Shown here piece by piece: positions 7,210 through 42,123 of a stretch of DNA of 42,124 nt. This DNA comes from a virus. The notes below the pieces were generated by a model that did no database searches, was not told the origin of the DNA, and worked only from the letters and a program-made list of their open reading frames with translations. Both the position numbers and the translations under genes were made by a program. How positions within the stretch are numbered: position 1 is the first letter of the stretch; the number at the start of each line of letters is the position of its first letter. The stretch spans positions 1 through 42,124 of IMG/VR virus record IMGVR_UViG_3300042554_001816; one strand, 5' to 3'.

Positions 7210-7394
7210 GCGCCGAACTCCGCAAAGACAACTGGCTCATGCTCCAATTCGGCGTGGCCAAAGAGCTGGGCCTGAGTCTGAGTGAAGTCCGCAACACCAT
7301 GACCGCCGAAGAACTCCTCGGCTGGAGCGCCTACTTCAGCATCCTCAACGAGGACCAGCAAAGGGAGATCGACAACGCCAAACGCCGCCGCTAA
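6868..7394 (+). CDS. GT: Frameshifted tail assembly chaperone (G-T fusion)
   Basis: A -1 ribosomal shift at CCCAAAG (7197-7203) fuses the short chaperone to a second frame that runs to TAA at 7392-7394. The added tail reads ALSAELRKDNWLMLQFGV..., then 'MTAEELLGWSAYFSILNED' and ends AKRRR. The 'GWSAYFSI' segment is typical of the T part of lambda G-T and its homologues. The second frame has no good start of its own and is otherwise perfectly coding. The ratio of the two forms controls tape-measure loading. The TAA lies in the loop of a terminator hairpin. Confidence 0.85.
7197..7203 (+). other. Programmed -1 frameshift site CCCAAAG
   Basis: The zero-frame codons are CCA AAG (7198-7203), preceded by the C of GAC. 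Slippage by one base re-pairs them as CCC AAA, fitting the X-XXY-YYZ rule and mirroring lambda's GGGAAAG. It lies two codons before the zero-frame stop. Confidence 0.85.
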
Positions 7395-7446: not shown

Positions 7447-9930
7447 GTGGCCGCCTACAGAGCCGACATCGAGATTGGCGTTCGCGGCATACAGCAACTC
7501 CAAAACACCACCAAACAGATTGATCTACTCAGCAAAGGTGTAGACGGAATAAACAAAAGATTCGCCGGCGGCATACAAAGTCTTAGCGCATATGATGCCA
7601 ACCTGGCAAAAGCCGCACGAACACTAAGTAGAGTAAACGCGGGTACTATTGCCGAAACAGATGCAGTCAAGCTATACGTGACTGCCCTGGGACAAGCAAA
7701 TGCAGCCAGAGATCGTCAAAATAGACTTATTCAAGAACAAATTGCGCTGCAGCGCAAAGCTGTAGCTACTGCAGATGCCGGCTTTGGTGTGCAAGGTCCG
7801 GCTTTGCCCCCAACAGGTCGCGGTGGGCGTGGCGGTCGCGGAAGACTCGCCAGCCGGCTTGGGGGTGCCGTTAGCGGCGCGGCAATCGGTGGTGCCTTCC
7901 CGCTGCTGTTCGGCCAAAGCGGTGGAGCAGCTGCTGGTGGCGCCATCGGCGGTCTGGCCGGCGGACTGCTCGGACCAGGCGGCAGTTTTGCCGGCAGCCT
8001 CGTCGGCACCATCCTTGGCGACATCGCCGCCAAAGGCAACGTAGTCAAACAGTTGGGCCAAGACATCGGCTTCTCTGCCGAGCAAACAAAGATACTGGAG
8101 CAATCCTTCAAACAAGCCGGCCGCGAATTCGACAAGTTCCAAGCATCCGTCCAAAACATCCGCGGCTTGGGGCTCGAAATCGACGCCCAAGCCGAAGCCA
8201 TCAAACTCGTCAGCAGGCTCACCGAAAACTACGGTGGCAACATTGACAAAGTCACCAACGCTTTTACCTCAGCCCTCGAATCCGGCAAGGTATCTCAAGC
8301 CACTCTCAACCAACTAACCAGCCAAGGCATCCCAATCCAACAGGCTCTGGCGGACAAATACAACGTCAGCCGCAGCGCCCTGCTGCAAATGGCCAAGGAC
8401 GGCAAAATCTCCGTCCAAGACTTGACCGACACCCTCGTCGAAGTCGGTAATCAGGGCGTAGCTGCCGCCACCAAAACCAGCAACGGCTTCACCCAACTAA
8501 GCACCGCAACCAAGGATCTCGGCAGCGCCTTCCAACAACTCGCTGGGGCAATCGTCACCGCACTTTCTCCGGCACTGGAGTGGCTCGCCGGAAAGATCGC
8601 CGGCATCATCAACCTCGCCGCCCAAGGCGTCCAAGCCGTTGCCCGGATGGTTAGCGGCGGCAGCCAAACAGACGTCGCCGCCTCTGCCATGGCCGGCGCC
8701 CAACTCGTCAAAGAGTTCCCCGAACTCCGCTCCCAGCGCATGGGCGGCCGCGCAGGCAAAGCCCTAGTACAAAACAACACCCTTGCCGTTGGAGCAACCG
8801 GCCAACTAACCCCCGAACAACTCAATCGCTACAACCAGCTCCGCAGCAAGGCTATGGGCACCCTCCAAACGCCCGCGCCCATCAAACAAATTGACGTCTC
8901 AGGCTTGGGGCAACTACCGGGAAAAGCCGACAAGTCTTCAGACAAAGCCGCTAGGGATGCGGCACGCTTAGAAGAACAACGCAAAAAACAACTTGAAACA
9001 GCTGCGCGTCTTGCTGTAGAAATGGATACACGAGTTAAGATGGCTGCCGCAATTACAAAAGAAGAAGAACTCCAAGCCGGGCTAGACCAAGCCCGTATGG
9101 AACGTATGACTAAATACGAAACTTTGTATCAAAAAGCCCTGAGCGACGCCGAACGCGAATTTCTTGTTAGCGCACAACTGGCTGAAATCACAGCCGAAAA
9201 ACTAGAGTACGAAGAAAAAATAAACGACATCCGCTTGGAGCAAGCGACCGCACTGAGCAGCGGCGACACACTCGGACAAGCCCAAGCAGAAATCAACCTG
9301 CTCGCTGCAAAACTGCAAGGTAAAGAACGCGAATACACACTCCAGCTTGCCATCGACGATCTCATTAGGCAAGGCGTTTTAGCGGAAGATGCCCGCAACA
9401 CTGTAGAAGTAGCCGACGAACTAAACCAAAAACTTGAACGGCAAGTCAGCCTTCAAAAGCAAATCCAAGACACCATCAACCAAGTCGGACAAACGACTGG
9501 CGGTGTACTCCAGCAACTCATTTTCAGCACAGATAGCTGGGCAGATAGTCTGACTAACGCACTTAATGCCTTGGCCAACATCCTCTTCCAAGCCGGCCTC
9601 GGTTTACTCGCGGGCGACGATGGTAAGGGTTTCTTCAGCTTCCTTACGGGCGGTTTAGGTAGACGAGCTGCCGGCGGTCCTGTAACCAGTGGTTCGCCCT
9701 ATATCGTTGGCGAACGCGGCCCCGAACTATTCGTGCCTGGCCGTAGCGGCACTATCGTGCCTAACAACAAGCTAGGCGGCGGTGGCACCAGTGTCGTAGT
9801 GAACGTCGATGCCAGCGGCAGTAAAGTACAGGGCGACGATCAACAGGGCAACCAGCTGGGTCGCGTCATCGCCGCCGCAGTTCAGCAGGAACTCATCAAA
9901 CAAAAACGCCCCGGAGGTTTACTGGTGTAA
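7447..9930 (+). CDS. Tail tape measure protein
   Basis: The protein is 827 aa with a GTG start, the largest gene directly after the chaperone pair. The N-terminus is helical. Gly/Ala-rich hydrophobic segments lie at about residues 135-195 ('GAAIGGAFPLLFGQSGGA') and near 700. Long helical coiled coils span about 500-680. The C-terminus contains 'GSPYIVGERGPELFVPGRSG', the conserved tail end of lambda-H-like tape measures. It sets tail length and leaves with the DNA to help it through the membrane. At about 0.15 nm per residue the tail would be near 120 nm (inference). Codons favour CAA and GAA, unlike the J-side genes. Confidence 0.9.
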   Translation: MAAYRADIEIGVRGIQQLQNTTKQIDLLSKGVDGINKRFAGGIQSLSAYDANLAKAARTLSRVNAGTIAETDAVKLYVTALGQANAARDRQNRLIQEQIALQRKAVATADAGFGVQGPALPPTGRGGRGGRGRLASRLGGAVSGAAIGGAFPLLFGQSGGAAAGGAIGGLAGGLLGPGGSFAGSLVGTILGDIAAKGNVVKQLGQDIGFSAEQTKILEQSFKQAGREFDKFQASVQNIRGLGLEIDAQAEAIKLVSRLTENYGGNIDKVTNAFTSALESGKVSQATLNQLTSQGIPIQQALADKYNVSRSALLQMAKDGKISVQDLTDTLVEVGNQGVAAATKTSNGFTQLSTATKDLGSAFQQLAGAIVTALSPALEWLAGKIAGIINLAAQGVQAVARMVSGGSQTDVAASAMAGAQLVKEFPELRSQRMGGRAGKALVQNNTLAVGATGQLTPEQLNRYNQLRSKAMGTLQTPAPIKQIDVSGLGQLPGKADKSSDKAARDAARLEEQRKKQLETAARLAVEMDTRVKMAAAITKEEELQAGLDQARMERMTKYETLYQKALSDAEREFLVSAQLAEITAEKLEYEEKINDIRLEQATALSSGDTLGQAQAEINLLAAKLQGKEREYTLQLAIDDLIRQGVLAEDARNTVEVADELNQKLERQVSLQKQIQDTINQVGQTTGGVLQQLIFSTDSWADSLTNALNALANILFQAGLGLLAGDDGKGFFSFLTGGLGRRAAGGPVTSGSPYIVGERGPELFVPGRSGTIVPNNKLGGGGTSVVVNVDASGSKVQGDDQQGNQLGRVIAAAVQQELIKQKRPGGLLV

Positions 9931-26444: not shown

Positions 26445-26683
26445 CAGTCTTTGTAAGGAGCACAAGCAAGTTTGTTAATCAGCCGGTTCAAATACCAGCG
26501 AGCCTTCATGAAATCCTCCAGCGGATCCTTCTTAAGCCACGCCCTGCTGACGTACTTAATAACCTGCCACTGCAGCCCACCAACCACAGCATCTGGAGCC
26601 GACTTCACCCAGTCCTCAATTACATCAATGACCTCAACTTTACCGCTGTTGTAATGAATCGGATGATCTACGGAATCACTCAT
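26444..26683 (-). CDS. DUF3310 (SaV-like) protein
   Basis: The protein is 79 aa. 'HPIHYNSGKVEVIDVIEDW' and 'GGLQWQVIKYVSRAWLKKDP' with 'EDFMKARWYLNRLI' are the hallmark motifs of DUF3310, a small phage protein often sitting among nucleotide metabolism genes and sometimes annotated nucleotide kinase-like, without firm proof. It overlaps Dcd (ATGA) and ThyX (TGATG), so all three are translated together. Confidence 0.85.
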   Translation of the reverse strand: MSDSVDHPIHYNSGKVEVIDVIEDWVKSAPDAVVGGLQWQVIKYVSRAWLKKDPLEDFMKARWYLNRLINKLACAPYKD

Positions 26684-27192
26684 CCCTTCGATCCCTGCAC
26701 GGTCGTGTCGCCGTAATACCGCCCCGTCACCGAGTAGTCCCTACTTGGCAACATCGACAATCTGTGGAACACCAGCTGAGCTATCCGCATCCCCGGCCAA
26801 AGCGGAACCGGGTGCATAGTCCGCGCATTCTGCAGCTCCAAGGTCAGCCGCCCCTTGTAACCAGGATCGACATACCCTGCCAGCAAATGCTCAATACCCT
26901 CCCTGGCACGACTCGACTTAAGCGTCAGCTGCCCAGCAATACAGTCAGGCAGATAAAACTCCTCCAGCGTCTCAGCCAGCACAAACTCATGCGGCTGGAG
27001 CATGTACGGCTTGTCCTTACTGCAGTCCGCAATCGAGTACGGCACCATGCTGTAACTGGTCGGAATCTCCACCAGCAAGTTGTCACCAAGTCTCACGTCG
27101 AGACTCGCCGGATTCACCAGCTCTTGATCAAAAGGAGTTACAAGACCCCGGCGAACCAGGGTCAAGATCTCCACGTCAGGGAGAATCGTCAC
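26680..27192 (-). CDS. dcd: dCTP deaminase
   Basis: The GTG at 27192, three bases after the upstream stop, gives 170 aa beginning MTILPDVEILTLVRRGLVTP. 'NPASLDVRLGD' (27-37), 'KSSRAREGIEHLLAGYVDPG' (92-111) and 'GRLTLELQN' with catalytic Glu119 are diagnostic. The C-terminal 'GRYYGDTTVQG' is the flexible active-site lid. It deaminates dCTP to dUTP, feeding dUMP to ThyX after a dUTPase step; whether this enzyme also hydrolyses dUTP (bifunctional type) cannot be told by eye. Confidence 0.92.
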   Translation of the reverse strand: MTILPDVEILTLVRRGLVTPFDQELVNPASLDVRLGDNLLVEIPTSYSMVPYSIADCSKDKPYMLQPHEFVLAETLEEFYLPDCIAGQLTLKSSRAREGIEHLLAGYVDPGYKGRLTLELQNARTMHPVPLWPGMRIAQLVFHRLSMLPSRDYSVTGRYYGDTTVQGSKG

Positions 27193-27194
27193 GC

Positions 27195-27581
27195 TCAGCC
27201 CACCGACTCGGCTGTCTGCTGGAGCGCAACACTCTTCCAAGTCCTGCCGAACTTGATGTTGTTGATGGTGGTGCTATGCACGCCAAACTCCGTCGCAATC
27301 TTGGCCACCGACTTACCGCCAGTTGCCAACTGCCGCTTGATCTCCAGCACCTTGCCCTCAGTCAGCAACGACACTCCCCGCCTCCCACGGCTGGATTCAC
27401 GAGTCTTACTTTGAGACTGGGTCTTGCGAGTGATCTTCTCACCGGCAGGCAGCGGGATGGTCTGCTTCGGCTTGGTCAGATCCAGCTCGACGTGCTGGCA
27501 CTGAGTAAGCGCGGCACGGGCCTCGTCAAGAGCTTGCGTGATCAGCTGGAACTGGTGCTCAGAAAGAATGTGCATGTTCAT
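27195..27581 (-). CDS. HTH protein related to homing-endonuclease DNA-binding domains
   Basis: The protein is 128 aa; the ATG overlaps the previous TGA (ATGA). The N-terminal 35 residues are helical; a basic linker follows ('KITRKTQSQSKTRESSRGRR'). The C-terminal part 'LTEGKVLEIKRQLATGGKSV' with 'AKIATEFGVHSTTINNIKFG' and RTWKSV is the HTH that usually ends NUMOD/HNH homing nucleases. The HNH gene at 38697 ends in the same pattern. Here no nuclease is attached, so it is an orphan DNA-binding protein, possibly a regulator placed first before dcd-thyX. Confidence 0.75.
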   Translation of the reverse strand: MNMHILSEHQFQLITQALDEARAALTQCQHVELDLTKPKQTIPLPAGEKITRKTQSQSKTRESSRGRRGVSLLTEGKVLEIKRQLATGGKSVAKIATEFGVHSTTINNIKFGRTWKSVALQQTAESVG

Positions 27582-30283: not shown

Positions 30284-30628
30284 TCACACCGGCACCCCTA
30301 GCTCTTCCGGCTGGTACTGGGTCAGCACGCAGACGTCGGCCCCCTGCCTGAGCGCCCCACCCACGATGTAGTGGAACTGAGCCTGCGCGTCCGGGCACTC
30401 AGCGATCTGGTACTCCTCGATCTCGTAAGCCTTGCCCCGGCGGTACCAAGCCACCCTGATAACGGCCAACAGCTCAAAGGGGATGTCGCCCACGGTGTAC
30501 CCCAGCGTGGGCTTTCTGGGCGGCTTGGGCTGGGGCGCATCGGACTTAGCCACTGGATCCCTCCAAAACAGCCATGCGGCAACCCGCAGCAGCCCTGGGA
30601 AAAAGTTAGGCGACGTGAACTGCCCCAT
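30284..30628 (-). CDS. Hypothetical protein downstream of primase-helicase (114 aa)
   Basis: The ATG at 30628 overlaps the primase-helicase TGA (TGATG). The N-terminus 'GLLRVAAWLFWRDPVAKSD' may be a short membrane or amphipathic segment; then 'GDIPFELLAVIRVAWYRRGK' and 'AYEIEEYQIAECPDAQAQFH'. Translational coupling suggests a role in replication or an adaptor for the helicase. No family is recognised. Confidence 0.5.
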   Translation of the reverse strand: MGQFTSPNFFPGLLRVAAWLFWRDPVAKSDAPQPKPPRKPTLGYTVGDIPFELLAVIRVAWYRRGKAYEIEEYQIAECPDAQAQFHYIVGGALRQGADVCVLTQYQPEELGVPV

Positions 30629-33042
30629 CACTCCCACATCCGTGCGGCTTCCTGCATCAGCTGCTCCAGCTCAGCCTCTGATCGCTGTTCCCCCCTTGGG
30701 GATACCTCCAAAACCTGTCCCACCTGACCAGATCCACTGGTGTCACTGGTTTCTGGGGTGGGACACGTAGGGGCGGTGTCCCAGCTTGTCCCATCTCTCT
30801 TCCCCGAAGGTGGGACAAGGTGGGACACGTCAACAGGCTGTCCCACCTTACTTTCCAGTCCCTGACTAGGTTTTTCATAGGTGGGACACATATTCACACA
30901 CATATCACGCGAGGCAGAAACAGCCTGGAACAAGTGAGCCTGCCCCCCAGTTCCAGCGGTACTACCCCCCACCTCAATCAACCCCCTCGAAACGAGCCTC
31001 TGGAGCGCCTTACGGATGGCGGTGACACTTCCACCGCACAAGGGGTCCGCAGCCAGGTCAGCGCGGCTCAGAGCGCGGGGATACGCAGCCCTAAGGCGCT
31101 GGAGCACCCGGTCCACGATCGACGCCGGACTGGCGCTGTCGCCATCCAGCTCCACGTAGTCCGCCAGCGAGAACGTCAGATCGTTCTCCAGCTTCATCAG
31201 CAGCTTGGAACCGTCCCGCCCCGCCCGAGACTTCTCCACGGTGATGAGGCGGGTGTTGCCCCCCAGTTGCTCCAGCTGGCGCTTGTCGGGCCTCCGAAGG
31301 CCCCAGCACTCGTCGCAGGCATCCCTGATCGCTGTGCTGCCCCTGAACCCGCCGGTCTTGTTCGCGTGGTGGATCAGCAGGATCGTGCAAGCCGGGAACG
31401 TCCGCCCGTTGTTGTTCGCCAGCCAATAAATCGGACTCGCAAACTCCTTCTTGTTCTCATCAAACGCCGACCCCCTACTGCACCCCGTAATCGAGTCGAT
31501 GATCACCAACTTCGGCTGGTGCCTCTCAATCAACTTCACAAAGCGGTAATACCAGTTCAAATCCCACCCCATCACCACCGTCACCGGATCCTCCGACTGG
31601 AACTCCAGATCCCGCAGCTGCTGCTGAACCTGCACCTCGCTCTGGTCGCCATTCAGGATCAGCACCGCCCCCTTCTGCACTGGAACCAGATCACCCCGCA
31701 CGGAGAACGGAATCCCCCTTGCCACATGCTTGGCAATCGTCCACGCCGACATGGACTTGCCATCCCCACCAGCCCCGTGGATCATCACGGTCCCCGGGCA
31801 CGGCAACAGATCCGGGATCAGATACTCAAACTTCAAATCCTTCTCCAGCAGCCTGCTCATCGCCATCTCGTCATCCTGCTGCTCAAACTGCATCTGAGCG
31901 ATCAGCAACCGCTCCAGAGCCCCAGCATCCCTGTACCCAGCTTCCAACGCCAGCACATTCATGGCATGTGCCGCCTCTGCCGGGTTTTGAATCTGCTGGA
32001 TCTCCTTCGCCCGCTTAATCACCTCGGCATAAGTGATAACAACCTGCCGAATCCTGGTGACGTTATCGGCCTCCACCTCAGCCACAACTTTCCGCAGATC
32101 CTCAGAAAGCCACAGCCTTCCGGGCATCTGCTGGTCCGCCAGCCAGAACAGCGAGCCCAGACTCACCGCCCCCTTCCGAAAACTCTTCCACACCTCCTCG
32201 CAAGGGTTCCCATCCACCCAATCCTGAGAAAACTCTGGATCTTCCGCCGACCACGCCGACCACAAGGTCAAGCCAAGGTCAGTCGGCAACTCCGAGTGGA
32301 TCGCCATGCCCACCTTCACCCAATGGTCCCGACTCCCGGCCCCCTGCCCCGGAATCACCATCAGCGCCGACTGCACAATCTCAGCCACCTCAGCGGGGTC
32401 TCGATCCGAGAAATCCAGCGCCTTCCGGTTCTTGATGAACCCGCCATCAGCCACTTCCTTCCCGGCGTGATCGCGCATCTCCGCCAGCAACCACCCTGGA
32501 GCCTCTGGAATGGCCTCCAGATCCCCCTCAAACCCATAGAACCCCTCCGGCGCCTTCCCATCACTGGAGCCCGGATAAGCCCCGTACAGGACGCCCTGGC
32601 GCCCCCACAGCACCTCATACCCCGCCCCGGTATCCGACAACCCAAAGCCCTTTACAACGCCCCACAGAGCCTCTGGGACGCGAAACAGGTACTTCGCCGC
32701 ATTGGCCTTGGTCGAAGTAACGACTGGAGCACCCTCCAGCGTCTCCCCCCACTTCTTTTTCAGCCTGGAGAGGTTGCGATCCACGTCAAGAATCACCAGC
32801 CCCCCACTCCGGGCACCAGTGAACGCCCCCACCGCCCGAAACACCTCCGGCCTCCGCTCGACCTGGAGCGCCACATCCGCCGGCCCCATGACCGTGTGGT
32901 GCGACTTCTCCAGCGGCGTCTTGCCTTTTGAAATTTTCCCGGACTGGATCGCCGCCCCCTGCCTGTAGATCGGCGCATACGCGATCCCAGCAGGCAGCTG
33001 GCGCACAAACGCCAACAGCTCCTGCGTCTTAGCTTGCGACAT
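30628..33042 (-). CDS. Primase-helicase (Prim-Pol + RepA-like ATPase)
   Basis: The protein is 804 aa. Residues about 1-190 look like a primase-polymerase domain: acidic pair in 'GLVILDVD' (82-88) and 'YEVLWGRQGVLYGAYPG' (142-158). A PriCT-like helical module spans about 215-305. The ATPase has Walker A 'HGAGGDGKS' (422-430), Walker B 'KLVIIDS' (511-517) and 'LLIHHANK' (555-562), as in RepA/RecA-type hexameric helicases. A winged helix lies at about 640-693 and a Ser/Thr/Gly/Pro-rich tail at about 700-790. It opens and primes the replication fork. The tail is encoded by DNA carrying eight TGTCCCA-type repeats. Confidence 0.88.
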   Translation of the reverse strand: MSQAKTQELLAFVRQLPAGIAYAPIYRQGAAIQSGKISKGKTPLEKSHHTVMGPADVALQVERRPEVFRAVGAFTGARSGGLVILDVDRNLSRLKKKWGETLEGAPVVTSTKANAAKYLFRVPEALWGVVKGFGLSDTGAGYEVLWGRQGVLYGAYPGSSDGKAPEGFYGFEGDLEAIPEAPGWLLAEMRDHAGKEVADGGFIKNRKALDFSDRDPAEVAEIVQSALMVIPGQGAGSRDHWVKVGMAIHSELPTDLGLTLWSAWSAEDPEFSQDWVDGNPCEEVWKSFRKGAVSLGSLFWLADQQMPGRLWLSEDLRKVVAEVEADNVTRIRQVVITYAEVIKRAKEIQQIQNPAEAAHAMNVLALEAGYRDAGALERLLIAQMQFEQQDDEMAMSRLLEKDLKFEYLIPDLLPCPGTVMIHGAGGDGKSMSAWTIAKHVARGIPFSVRGDLVPVQKGAVLILNGDQSEVQVQQQLRDLEFQSEDPVTVVMGWDLNWYYRFVKLIERHQPKLVIIDSITGCSRGSAFDENKKEFASPIYWLANNNGRTFPACTILLIHHANKTGGFRGSTAIRDACDECWGLRRPDKRQLEQLGGNTRLITVEKSRAGRDGSKLLMKLENDLTFSLADYVELDGDSASPASIVDRVLQRLRAAYPRALSRADLAADPLCGGSVTAIRKALQRLVSRGLIEVGGSTAGTGGQAHLFQAVSASRDMCVNMCPTYEKPSQGLESKVGQPVDVSHLVPPSGKRDGTSWDTAPTCPTPETSDTSGSGQVGQVLEVSPRGEQRSEAELEQLMQEAARMWE
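30716..30889. repeat. Iteron-like array of TGTCCCA / TGGGACA (8 copies)
   Basis: Core copies start at 30716, 30777, 30787 and 30839 (TGTCCCA) and at 30759, 30811, 30821 and 30882 (TGGGACA), within the end of the primase-helicase gene. Several extend to GTGGGACAC or TGTCCCACC. They fall in different codon phases, so coding does not explain them. Placement in the DNA for a disordered linker recalls the lambda origin inside gene O. Confidence 0.75.
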
Positions 33043-34828: not shown

Positions 34829-35314
34829 ATGTCACAGTCTAACGTACGTCCTCCCGTGGAGGATCTGTGGGAAAAGTATTCCTACAACCCATTCACTGGA
34901 GCGCTTCACCGCCGTGATAACGATCGCCCGTTGAGAGGCAATCACTGCAGTAGAAGTCACCAACTTTCCATTCATGGAACCGCACGTCATCCTTACGGTG
35001 TTGTTGTATTTGCGTGGGTAAATGGTAGGTGGCCCATTCATGGAATGGAGATAGACCACATTGACCGTAACCCATTCAATCAGCACTGGTACAACCTGCG
35101 AGAAGTTACTCGCCGGCAAAACATGCAGAACACTAGCCGTTCTCGTGGTGGAGCGTATAAAAGCGGGCGCCGCTGGTGTGCAACCATTCTTCTAAACAAT
35201 CAGGCACACCGTTTAGGTAGTTTTTCCACTGAAAAAGAGGCACGCGCAGCTTACCTAGCCGCTTGTGCCTCTAAAGGTCTGGCGTATCTGCCGGACCTTG
35301 TGCTGGCGCTCTAA
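34829..35314 (+). CDS. HNH endonuclease with AP2 DNA-binding domain
   Basis: The protein is 161 aa. The N-terminal 'LWEKYSYNPFTGALHRRDND' is the usual lead-in. The HNH core is 'GMEIDHIDRNPFNQHWYNLR' with 'EVTRRQNMQNTSRSRG', containing the Asp-His, Asn and Asn residues. 'GAYKSGRRWCATILLNNQAH' plus 'LGSFSTEKEARAAYLAACAS' is an AP2 domain. This is a standard mobile homing endonuclease. Four CCATTCA copies lie inside the gene and one in its leader, raising the question whether the motif relates to its target. Confidence 0.9.
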   Translation: MSQSNVRPPVEDLWEKYSYNPFTGALHRRDNDRPLRGNHCSRSHQLSIHGTARHPYGVVVFAWVNGRWPIHGMEIDHIDRNPFNQHWYNLREVTRRQNMQNTSRSRGGAYKSGRRWCATILLNNQAHRLGSFSTEKEARAAYLAACASKGLAYLPDLVLAL

Positions 35315-38696: not shown

Positions 38697-39233
38697 ATGT
38701 GGAAACCGATTTCCGGGTTTGAAACGTTGTACGAGGCAAGCGACACCGGCCAAATCCGCTCCCTGGATCGCATCGTTCGCTATACCCGCCGCGACGGACG
38801 CCGCGTGGAGCGCAAGTACGTTGGCAAGACCTTGCAACCTGGGTTAAACAGCCGTGGCTACGAGATTGTGACGCTCTGCGACGCCACCAACCGCCACCAC
38901 ACCCGCGCCATCCATCGACTGGTACTTGAGACCTTTGTCCGTCTCAAAAATCAGGGCGAAGAGTGCCGCCACCTTGACGGCAACATCCGCAATAACGCAC
39001 TAAGCAACCTCTGCTGGGGCACTACTGCCGAAAACATGGCCGACAAAATTGCCCACGGAACGTGGGTAAGGGGTAGCCGCGTAGGCAACTCTCGCCTTAC
39101 AGAGGACCAAGTACGCGAGATCAAGCGGCGACTGGCGCAAAAAGAACCTCACGCCTCTATTGCACTAGATTACGGCGTCACAAGAGCAGCAATCAGTGCT
39201 ATCAGTGCCGGCTACAACTGGGCTTGGCTATGA
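38697..39233 (+). CDS. HNH endonuclease (NUMOD4 + HNH_3 + HTH) next to terminase
   Basis: The protein is 178 aa. The NUMOD4 start is 'MWKPISGFETLYEASDTGQI'. HNH_3 follows at about 70-125: 'HRLVLETFVRLKNQGEECRH', 'LDGNIRNNALSNLCWGTTAE', 'NMADKIAHGT'. The C-terminal HTH is 'LTEDQVREIKRRLAQKEPHA' with 'SIALDYGVTRAAISAI'. HNH proteins encoded beside terminase genes are, in several phages, needed for terminase cleavage of genome ends (established for HK97-type phages), but the NUMOD4/HTH plan is more typical of homing enzymes. It overlaps TerL by ATGA. Confidence 0.9.
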   Translation: MWKPISGFETLYEASDTGQIRSLDRIVRYTRRDGRRVERKYVGKTLQPGLNSRGYEIVTLCDATNRHHTRAIHRLVLETFVRLKNQGEECRHLDGNIRNNALSNLCWGTTAENMADKIAHGTWVRGSRVGNSRLTEDQVREIKRRLAQKEPHASIALDYGVTRAAISAISAGYNWAWL

Positions 39234-40860: not shown

Positions 40861-42123
40861 GTGCAACTAATCCACTCCACCTCCGTTACCACCCCCTACC
40901 CCTTCGGCACCTCCACCGGCGGCGCCGCATCTTCTGCTGGAGCCACCGACGCCTTCGGCCGCATCCGCACCTCCAGTCCCCTCACCCTTTTCGACTCCAG
41001 CCACCGTTACCGCGACAACGGCCTCTGGAGCACCTCCACCGCAACCGGCGGCACCTCAACCTTCGACGCCAGCGCCGGCCTGGTCAACCTCTCCGTAACC
41101 ACGGCCTCCGGTTCCTCGGTCATCCGCGAAACCACCAAATGCTTCTCCTACCAGCCGGGCAAATCCCTGCTGGTCATGTCCACCTTCACCCTCAACGCCG
41201 CCAAAACCAACCTCTGCCAGCGCATCGGCTACTACGGCGCCGCCAACGGCATGTACCTGGAGCTGGACAACACCACCCTCTCCTTCGTCGAACGCAGCTC
41301 CTCTACCGGCTCTCTACTCGAAACCCGCGTCGCCCAATCCGACTGGAACACCGACCCCCTCAACGGCACCGGCCCCTCCAACCTCAACCTCGACCTCACC
41401 AAAGCCCAGATCCTCTGGATGGACATTGAGTGGCTGGGCCTTGGCACAGTCCGCCTGGGCTTCATCATCAACGGCAAATTCATCCACTGCCATTCTTTCC
41501 ACCACGCCAACATCATCACCTCCACCTACATCACCACCGCCTCCCTCCCCCTCCGCTACGAAATCACCAACACCGCCGCCACCGCCAGCGCCAGCACCCT
41601 CAAGCAAGTCTGCTCCACAGTCCTTTCTGAAGGCGGCTACGAACTACGCGGCCTCCAGCAAGCCATCGGCACCACAATAACTTCTCCTCACGTCCTCACC
41701 ACAGCAGGCACATACTATCCAGTCATTTCTTTACGCCTTAAATCCGCTGCACTAGATGCAATTGTTATTCTTACCGCCCTATCTATATTGGCCGCCACAG
41801 CCAACTCAAACTACAGCTGGCGTGTAGTTGCCTCTGCCACAACCACCGGAGGCACTTGGACAAGCGCCGGAACAGATTCCAGCGTCGAATACAACCTAAC
41901 TGGAACAGCAACAACCGGCGGCCGCATTTTGGCCCAGGGCTATTTCAGCTCCACCAACCAGAGCACATCCTCAGTAGACATCCTCAAAGAAGCACTATTC
42001 AAATTCCAGCTGGAACGCAACGGCCTCACAACAACCCCCTACGAATTAAGCCTTGTTGTCGCGGCCAGCTCGTCAACGTCTAACGTACATGCATCCATGG
42101 ACTGGGAGGAAATCAGCCGCTAA
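40861..42123 (+). CDS. Virion structural protein ('DAFGRIR' type)
   Basis: The protein is 420 aa with a GTG start at 40861. 'GATDAFGRIRTSSPLTLFDS' (about 32-51) is the signature of a widespread structural family in cyanophages and related phages, followed by a beta-sandwich region ('CFSYQPGKSLLVMSTFTLNA', 'WMDIEWLGLGTVRLGFIING'). It lies between terminase and the right edge, where portal and head genes are expected next. The stop TAA is at 42121-42123, one base before the edge. Codon bias changes toward less C-rich usage after about 41680. Confidence 0.75.
   Translation: MQLIHSTSVTTPYPFGTSTGGAASSAGATDAFGRIRTSSPLTLFDSSHRYRDNGLWSTSTATGGTSTFDASAGLVNLSVTTASGSSVIRETTKCFSYQPGKSLLVMSTFTLNAAKTNLCQRIGYYGAANGMYLELDNTTLSFVERSSSTGSLLETRVAQSDWNTDPLNGTGPSNLNLDLTKAQILWMDIEWLGLGTVRLGFIINGKFIHCHSFHHANIITSTYITTASLPLRYEITNTAATASASTLKQVCSTVLSEGGYELRGLQQAIGTTITSPHVLTTAGTYYPVISLRLKSAALDAIVILTALSILAATANSNYSWRVVASATTTGGTWTSAGTDSSVEYNLTGTATTGGRILAQGYFSSTNQSTSSVDILKEALFKFQLERNGLTTTPYELSLVVAASSSTSNVHASMDWEEISR

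Follow-up and report, generated by a model that had tools for sequence, protein, structure and literature searches.

A mirrored array of TGTCC sites inside a phage primase-helicase gene is a candidate replication origin and covaries with the gene's winged helix

The primase-helicase gene and the sites within it

The window analysed here, meaning the whole 42,124-bp IMG/VR virus record, carries on its minus strand a gene for a putative initiator of 804 amino acids (30628-33042), identified by its open reading frame and Pfam matches and combining Prim-Pol, PriCT-2, AAA_25 and winged-helix domains. The Prim-Pol-like domain (residues 40-184; 32491-32925, minus strand) is a weak match under the Pfam cut-off (E 0.0028), with an LDVD motif present. 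Its usual histidine motif looks replaced (NAAKYLF), and priming by the 804-residue protein may therefore be atypical. The PriCT-2 domain (residues 224-302; 32137-32373, minus; E 8e-14) is followed by a RecA-like ATPase of the AAA_25 family (residues 404-564; 31351-31833, minus; E 7e-19) with the Walker A motif GAGGDGKS. Pfam returned these domains instead of a Toprim primase or an SF3/D5-type helicase, and the O-like family of phage lambda was absent among the Pfam and PHROGs matches. On the opposite strand, an open frame of 703 codons (30820-32931) is probably a by-product of codon usage.

The full-length AlphaFold2 model of the protein is poor (pLDDT 47) and is interpretable for the winged helix alone. 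Modelled by itself, that domain (residues ~640-707; 30922-31125, minus) has three helices and a two-stranded wing, with a pLDDT of ~80 in the core; Foldseek matches it chiefly to winged-helix regulators (best E 0.002). A sequence profile search of the PDB gave no match to the full alignment and weak matches only to the winged helix. The predicted recognition helix spans residues 673-685 (30988-31026, minus). The tail beyond the winged helix is predicted, at low confidence, as coil, and then as a short C-terminal helix. This conserved predicted helix (residues ~789-803; 30631-30678), which lies 3' of the repeats described next and ends in LEQLMQEAARMWE, is possibly a partner-binding helix.

A sequence scan places eight exact copies of TGTCCCA, four on each strand, in the 3' part of the gene between 30716 and 30888. 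In gene order, the six sites that proved universal among relatives are site 1 (30882-30888, minus), site 2 (30839-30845, plus), site 3 (30821-30827, minus), site 4 (30777-30783, plus), site 5 (30759-30765, minus) and site 6 (30716-30722, plus); the two optional inner sites are at 30811-30817 (minus) and 30787-30793 (plus). The first-pass annotation had described this cluster inside the primase-helicase gene, its differing codon phases and a single further copy elsewhere, and all of this holds: phases 0, 1 and 2 are all used, and the remaining copy is at 7688 on the minus strand. Absent from that annotation was an exact dyad. The four plus/minus pairs share a common centre at 30802, with site centres 83, 40, 22 and 12 bp away on both sides, mirrored orientation and successive spacings of 43, 18, 10, 24, 10, 18 and 43 bp.

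Chance is a poor explanation for this arrangement. When eight sites were placed at random 200,000 times, four such dyad pairs never arose, and none of 300 dinucleotide shuffles of the 1.2 kb around the gene end contained any 7-mer with eight copies. Over the whole window TGTCCCA is not clearly in excess (9 copies against 5.3 expected, a count reached in 7 of 100 shuffles). The exact 8-mers TGTCCCAC are all in the array and nowhere else in the window, and the full six-site geometric pattern has the array as its sole match there and was never matched in window shuffles.

Other elements accompany the sites. Conserved spacer elements lie between sites 6 and 5 (30728-30749, here CCAGATCCACTGGTGTCACTGG) and, as its mirror, between sites 2 and 1 (30851-30870, here CTTTCCAGTCCCTGACTAGG); both centre on CCAGT/ACTGG, are placed symmetrically in the outer 43-bp gaps, and form a second dyad-related motif that may be a second protein site. 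The most AT-rich stretch by the array (30865-30918) is a candidate unwinding element. Family-wide, mean GC is 44% in the 30 nucleotides just beyond site 1 and 60% in the gene; the patch is modest, its lowest 40-mer having 37.5% GC, and no strongly AT-rich block is present. The first-pass annotation had proposed GC skew as a check, and genome-wide skew has no turn at 30.8 kb. Skew was set aside as an origin marker, its detrended extremes lying off the array at 7250 and 19060.

Conservation of the array and distant homologues

A protein scan of IMG/VR matched 270 relatives, of which 80 were kept, with 69 distinct full-length genes among them. In all 69 the array is present inside the coding sequence with its geometry intact, as two mirrored half-arrays around an invariant TGTCC core. 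One half-array reads TGTCC, then GGACA 45 bp further on, start to start, then TGTCC after 16-17 bp, and the other is its mirror image; spacings are fixed, at 43/45 and 16/18 bp. Of the six universal positions, four are intact in all 69 genes and two in 67/69; the inner sites are optional. Total array lengths (161, 173, 194, 206 and 230 bp) differ by multiples of three, as befits coding sequence, and the length of the centre varies in threes. A search of all viral contigs with the TGTCC/GGACA pattern, as geometry alone, gave 105 matching stretches, and each of the 104 that were read encodes the tail of this initiator gene. The half-array pattern occurs solely at the array in 10/10 long phage records.

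The constraint is also visible in the codons. Glycine is encoded by GGA at two site columns in 69/69 and 69/69 genes, against 5% in the gene body, and cysteine by TGT at two others in 68/68 and 67/67, against 26%. Serine TCC (64/65, against 19%) and aspartate GAC (69/69, against 41%) follow the same rule. Synonymous identity is raised over codons ~708-785 (approximately 30688-30921, minus), with z of ~4 at the peaks, and this region spans the spacer elements and the AT-rich stretch outside site 1. It had been suggested that the DNA repeats might persist in homologues while the protein tail diverges, and this is what we see: the site codons are fixed and the residues between them vary.

The family is one of uncultured phages as far as our scans reach. 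No close relatives were found in the GTDB genomes, and among phage isolates there were likewise none, the ATPase domain alone being matched at 28-29% identity; no cultured phage of the array-bearing family was found. The S-CBS4, ctVRi840 and CyRepA1 relatives were rejected as array bearers, having no convincing motif cluster, and the CyRepX literature mentions neither AAA domains nor iterons.

Searched against plasmids with tblastn, the protein matched cyanobacterial records only. A gene of Anabaena cylindrica plasmid pANACY.03 (L224), ~29% identical over the ATPase and winged-helix stretch, has in its tail (L224:3417-3640) a cluster of TTGTCCAA sites that was equalled in 0/300 shuffles; the TGTCC core is that of the phages, the spacing is another, and the helix LRKALSRL is similar to phage recognition helices. 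Other motifs, AGTCAACA (0/300 shuffles) and AACCTAAC (1/300), occur in the tails of the Nostoc HK-01 and Nostoc C057 homologues, in a geometry unlike that of the phages. In two Nostoc plasmid records these 3' tail clusters lie at L225:3428-3690 (AGTCAACA) and L227:3470-3650 (AACCTAACAC) and are partly dyad-arranged. Homologues from Synechocystis B12 and Gloeothece were rejected as array bearers, with motif clusters not above shuffles, as was that of Aulosira (L226), where the repeats are outside the gene and not significant.

These comparisons suggest that tail arrays may be an old habit of this protein group, and the plasmid homologues that bear them suggest a cyanobacterium as the phage host. 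A cyanophage-like structural protein in the window is compatible with such a host. This virion protein (40861-42123) is ~70% identical to proteins of Puniceispirillum phage HMO-2011 and cyanomyoviruses, far closer to isolates than the DNA polymerase or primase genes of the window are.

Covariation and exchange of winged helix and sites

TGTCC is invariant across the family; the bases that follow it vary between phages and change together across all the sites of one phage. The extensions include CACC, CACT, CATT, CCCC, CGG, AGCT, AACT, TNTTT and other types. Agreement at the extension bases is 0.84, 0.68, 0.68 and 0.80 within arrays, against 0.42, 0.33, 0.36 and 0.47 between arrays.

The extension type is tracked by the winged helix. 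The extension was compared with the 248 variable columns of residues 1-708; residue 677, which lies in the predicted recognition helix, predicts it best, and the ten highest-ranking columns all fall within residues 667-703. When residues 674, 675, 677, 679 and 680 are taken as a helix key, keys map almost one-to-one to extensions: TARAL goes with CACC, AGRAL with CACT, TAKAT with CCCC, AGKAT with CGG, SAQAT with AAC, AGTAT with AGC and AAGAL with the T-type. The nearest neighbour in the winged helix predicts two extension bases in 46/69 cases, compared with 12/69 for the N-terminal 600 amino acids and 33/69 for the best control block. On the tree of the N-terminal part of the gene the site motif changed at least 15 times, and in independent pairs on that tree a C in the motif accompanies R or K at residue 677 by about 8:0 (median p 0.008). 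In different backgrounds, too, similar helices are paired with similar sites. The winged helix had been proposed as a possible binder of the repeats, and that it best predicts their sequence strengthens the proposal; we take direct binding of the array by the gene's own winged helix to be strongly suggested by this covariation.

Comparisons of close relatives point to how such pairs change. Between phages more than 90% alike elsewhere, a block of ~540 bp comprising the winged helix and the array is replaced between flanks of ~95% identity. In the clearest pair (L016/L029), 60-bp windows are mostly 92-100% identical up to about codon 620 (one is 80%), fall to 47-82% across the winged helix and the array, and recover to 95-100% immediately downstream; the pairs L040/L047, L025/L028 and L017/L020 follow the same pattern less sharply. 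The predicted DNA-binding domain and its sites are, on these alignments, exchanged together. The block corresponds in the window to approximately 30628-31185 on the minus strand. Since binding domain and sites lie within ~0.5 kb of one gene, they would be inherited and exchanged as a single specificity cassette, and the position of the array beside the DNA-binding domain would keep initiator and origin matched through recombination.

A broader proposal, to which we give about even odds, is that the winged helix and its cognate dyad origin form an exchangeable cassette of at least ten site types, swapped between phages that are nearly identical elsewhere, as though origin identity were selected for. 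The block exchange suggests diversifying selection on origin identity in these phages, and the same has been reported for the PLE satellites of Vibrio (PMC8263062). If this is true, interference between co-infecting phages or escape from defences that target origins can be imagined as the cause. Because the helix keys stand in a nearly one-to-one relation to the site sequences, the family would also provide a readable recognition code for winged helices, and its naturally occurring helix/site pairs offer ready data on how an initiator winged helix may read DNA.

The array as a candidate origin

We propose that the array is an intragenic replication origin, bound by the product of the gene that contains it and loading two opposed helicases, and we put the probability of this reading at roughly 0.7. 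We infer the origin function from the identity of the likely binder, the uniqueness of the array in each genome and analogy with known systems. The C-terminal winged helix of the primase-helicase would bind TGTCC-N4 sites in the 3' part of its own gene, with TGTCC as the shared core; residue 677 of the recognition helix, together with 680, and the wing would read the next three to five bases. Each half-array, of three to four sites, would position one protein ring, the two in opposite orientations. DNA would open in or beside the array, two helicases would start outward from the dyad, and the attached primase domain would prime both forks to give a bidirectional theta start. Membership of the ATPase family is our ground for assuming ring formation and helicase polarity, and we infer the ring loading, the place of melting and the bidirectionality. 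A family-A polymerase is encoded in the window itself, and the ORFs tested there revealed no second helicase. Few uncultured phages have a known replication origin; here, sequence alone points to a strong candidate, and a geometric pattern, specific to one gene family in our scan, identifies it in at least 100 viral contigs. The array would meet two coding needs together, those of a protein tail and of binding sites.

The array could instead be an operator, through which the initiator or another regulator controls its own operon or the next gene while replication starts elsewhere. In favour of this, the following ORF (30284-30637) has the array ~80 bp upstream of it, and repression loops can be built on dyads with several sites. 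However, it sits at the 3' end of its gene, far from the gene start, no promoter-like match was found near it, and exact TGTCCCAC sites are absent from the rest of the window. In some pairs of phages that keep the array (L009/L049 and L018/L049) the downstream DNA is unrelated, which disfavours an operator of the next gene. We regard a regulatory role as unlikely.

Physical linkage and joint exchange could account for part of the covariation between array and winged helix; at the extreme, linkage would be all there is, adjacent parts travelling together while another protein binds the sites. Exchange does occur in blocks. The predicted recognition helix and wing nevertheless rank first within the winged helix, similar helices keep similar sites in different backgrounds, and the domain that covaries belongs to a replication protein. 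As the recognition helix ranks above the rest of the swapped block, recognition is favoured, though short of proof, and linkage as the whole explanation seems to us rather improbable.

To about the same degree we doubt that the array acts as a large stem-loop (cruciform) in which structure counts and not site sequence, as proposed for the origin of plasmid pRN1. Each plus/minus pair and the entire array are inverted repeats, and in pRN1 and phage BIP-1 a stem-loop lies 3' of a gene that combines prim-pol, helicase and winged helix (PMC4234260). But spacers of the same phage agree with each other's complement at 0.51 and with that of other phages at 0.48, and the core is invariant, with fixation at the level of codons. 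An origin of the pRN1 type would be expected to keep structure as sequence diverges; here the spacers do not clearly evolve as pairs, and for this reason the array is read as protein-binding sites and not as a hairpin. It has two traits of an iteron origin, namely a motif clustered at one place in the genome and a linked initiator whose DNA-binding domain tracks the sites by covariation.

Partition (centromere), packaging (pac/cos) and site-specific recombination systems also use arrays of inverted sites, and packaging sites may be intragenic. Against such a function, which we think very unlikely, site specificity follows the winged helix of the primase-helicase, the terminase gene is ~8 kb away, and no partition or recombinase gene was identified in the subset of the window's ORFs that was tested. 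Finally, protein-level selection for CP..GQ..VS..D..CP..GQ tail motifs might have produced the repeats incidentally. The dipeptides of these motifs are indeed conserved, but the idea is already contradicted by codons fixed far from gene usage (above all glycine GGA and cysteine TGT) and by sites that occupy both strands and several frames of a predicted coil, and it deserves next to no credence.

With an origin bound by its own gene product as the preferred reading, the parallel with lambda gene O drawn by the first-pass annotation is a fair one for the position of an origin inside an initiator gene; the module would work more like P4 alpha, SaPI Rep and PLE RepA/ori. The N15 repA gene also contains its origin. 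In lambda, the origin lies within the coding sequence of O (PMC7157519), as the candidate sites do here, in a predicted coil linker or tail, but O is not a primase-helicase, unlike the 804-residue protein. The repC gene of repABC likewise has its origin inside the initiator coding sequence, with no repeats shown (PMC3155836). The mirrored half-array geometry is not reported for lambda O, repC or N15 repA in the literature consulted.

P4 uses an SF3 helicase, and its origin is outside the alpha gene. The phage gene differs in having Prim-Pol/PriCT-2 and AAA_25 domains and repeats inside the gene. P4 alpha unites a Toprim-type primase, a helicase and a winged helix that binds origin repeats in one polypeptide (PMC4234260), and the 804-residue protein is alike in joining primase, helicase and a C-terminal winged helix linked to repeats by covariation. 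RSF1010 divides helicase, primase and iteron binding among RepA, RepB' and RepC (PMC4234260), three tasks that one protein would hold in the phage. SaPI Rep and SCCmec Cch2 are self-loading initiator helicases whose C-terminal domain binds short iterons beside their own gene (PMC7581432). Their origin is directly downstream of the gene, whereas the phage array is internal, strictly dyad-symmetric and constrained together with coding sequence, and the phage ATPase, unlike theirs, is of the AAA_25 family. In the PLE satellites, the DNA-binding domain of RepA_N covaries with the origin, and the pair has been exchanged on several occasions, with the remainder of RepA conserved (PMC8263062). The phage winged helix and array likewise covary and swap as a pair; the PLE protein is a RepA_N initiator whose DNA-binding domain is N-terminal and whose origin is intergenic, while the phage has primase-helicase, binding domain and candidate origin in one gene. 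For the prim-pol/helicase/winged-helix proteins of pRN1 (ORF904) and phage BIP-1, the origin or candidate origin lies 3' of the gene (PMC4234260); it is a stem-loop without iterons, and the helicase is SF3, as opposed to repeated sites and AAA_25. Iteron-binding initiators beside their genes, swapped domain/origin pairs and origins inside initiator genes are thus already known. The combination of strict mirrored geometry, a RecA-type ATPase, a one-gene cassette and a near-deterministic helix/site relation is undescribed in the open-access literature searched.

Elsewhere in the window, a dCTP deaminase-like gene lies at 26680-27240, and two HNH endonucleases (34829-35314 and 38697-39233), one with NUMOD4, are probably of the homing type.
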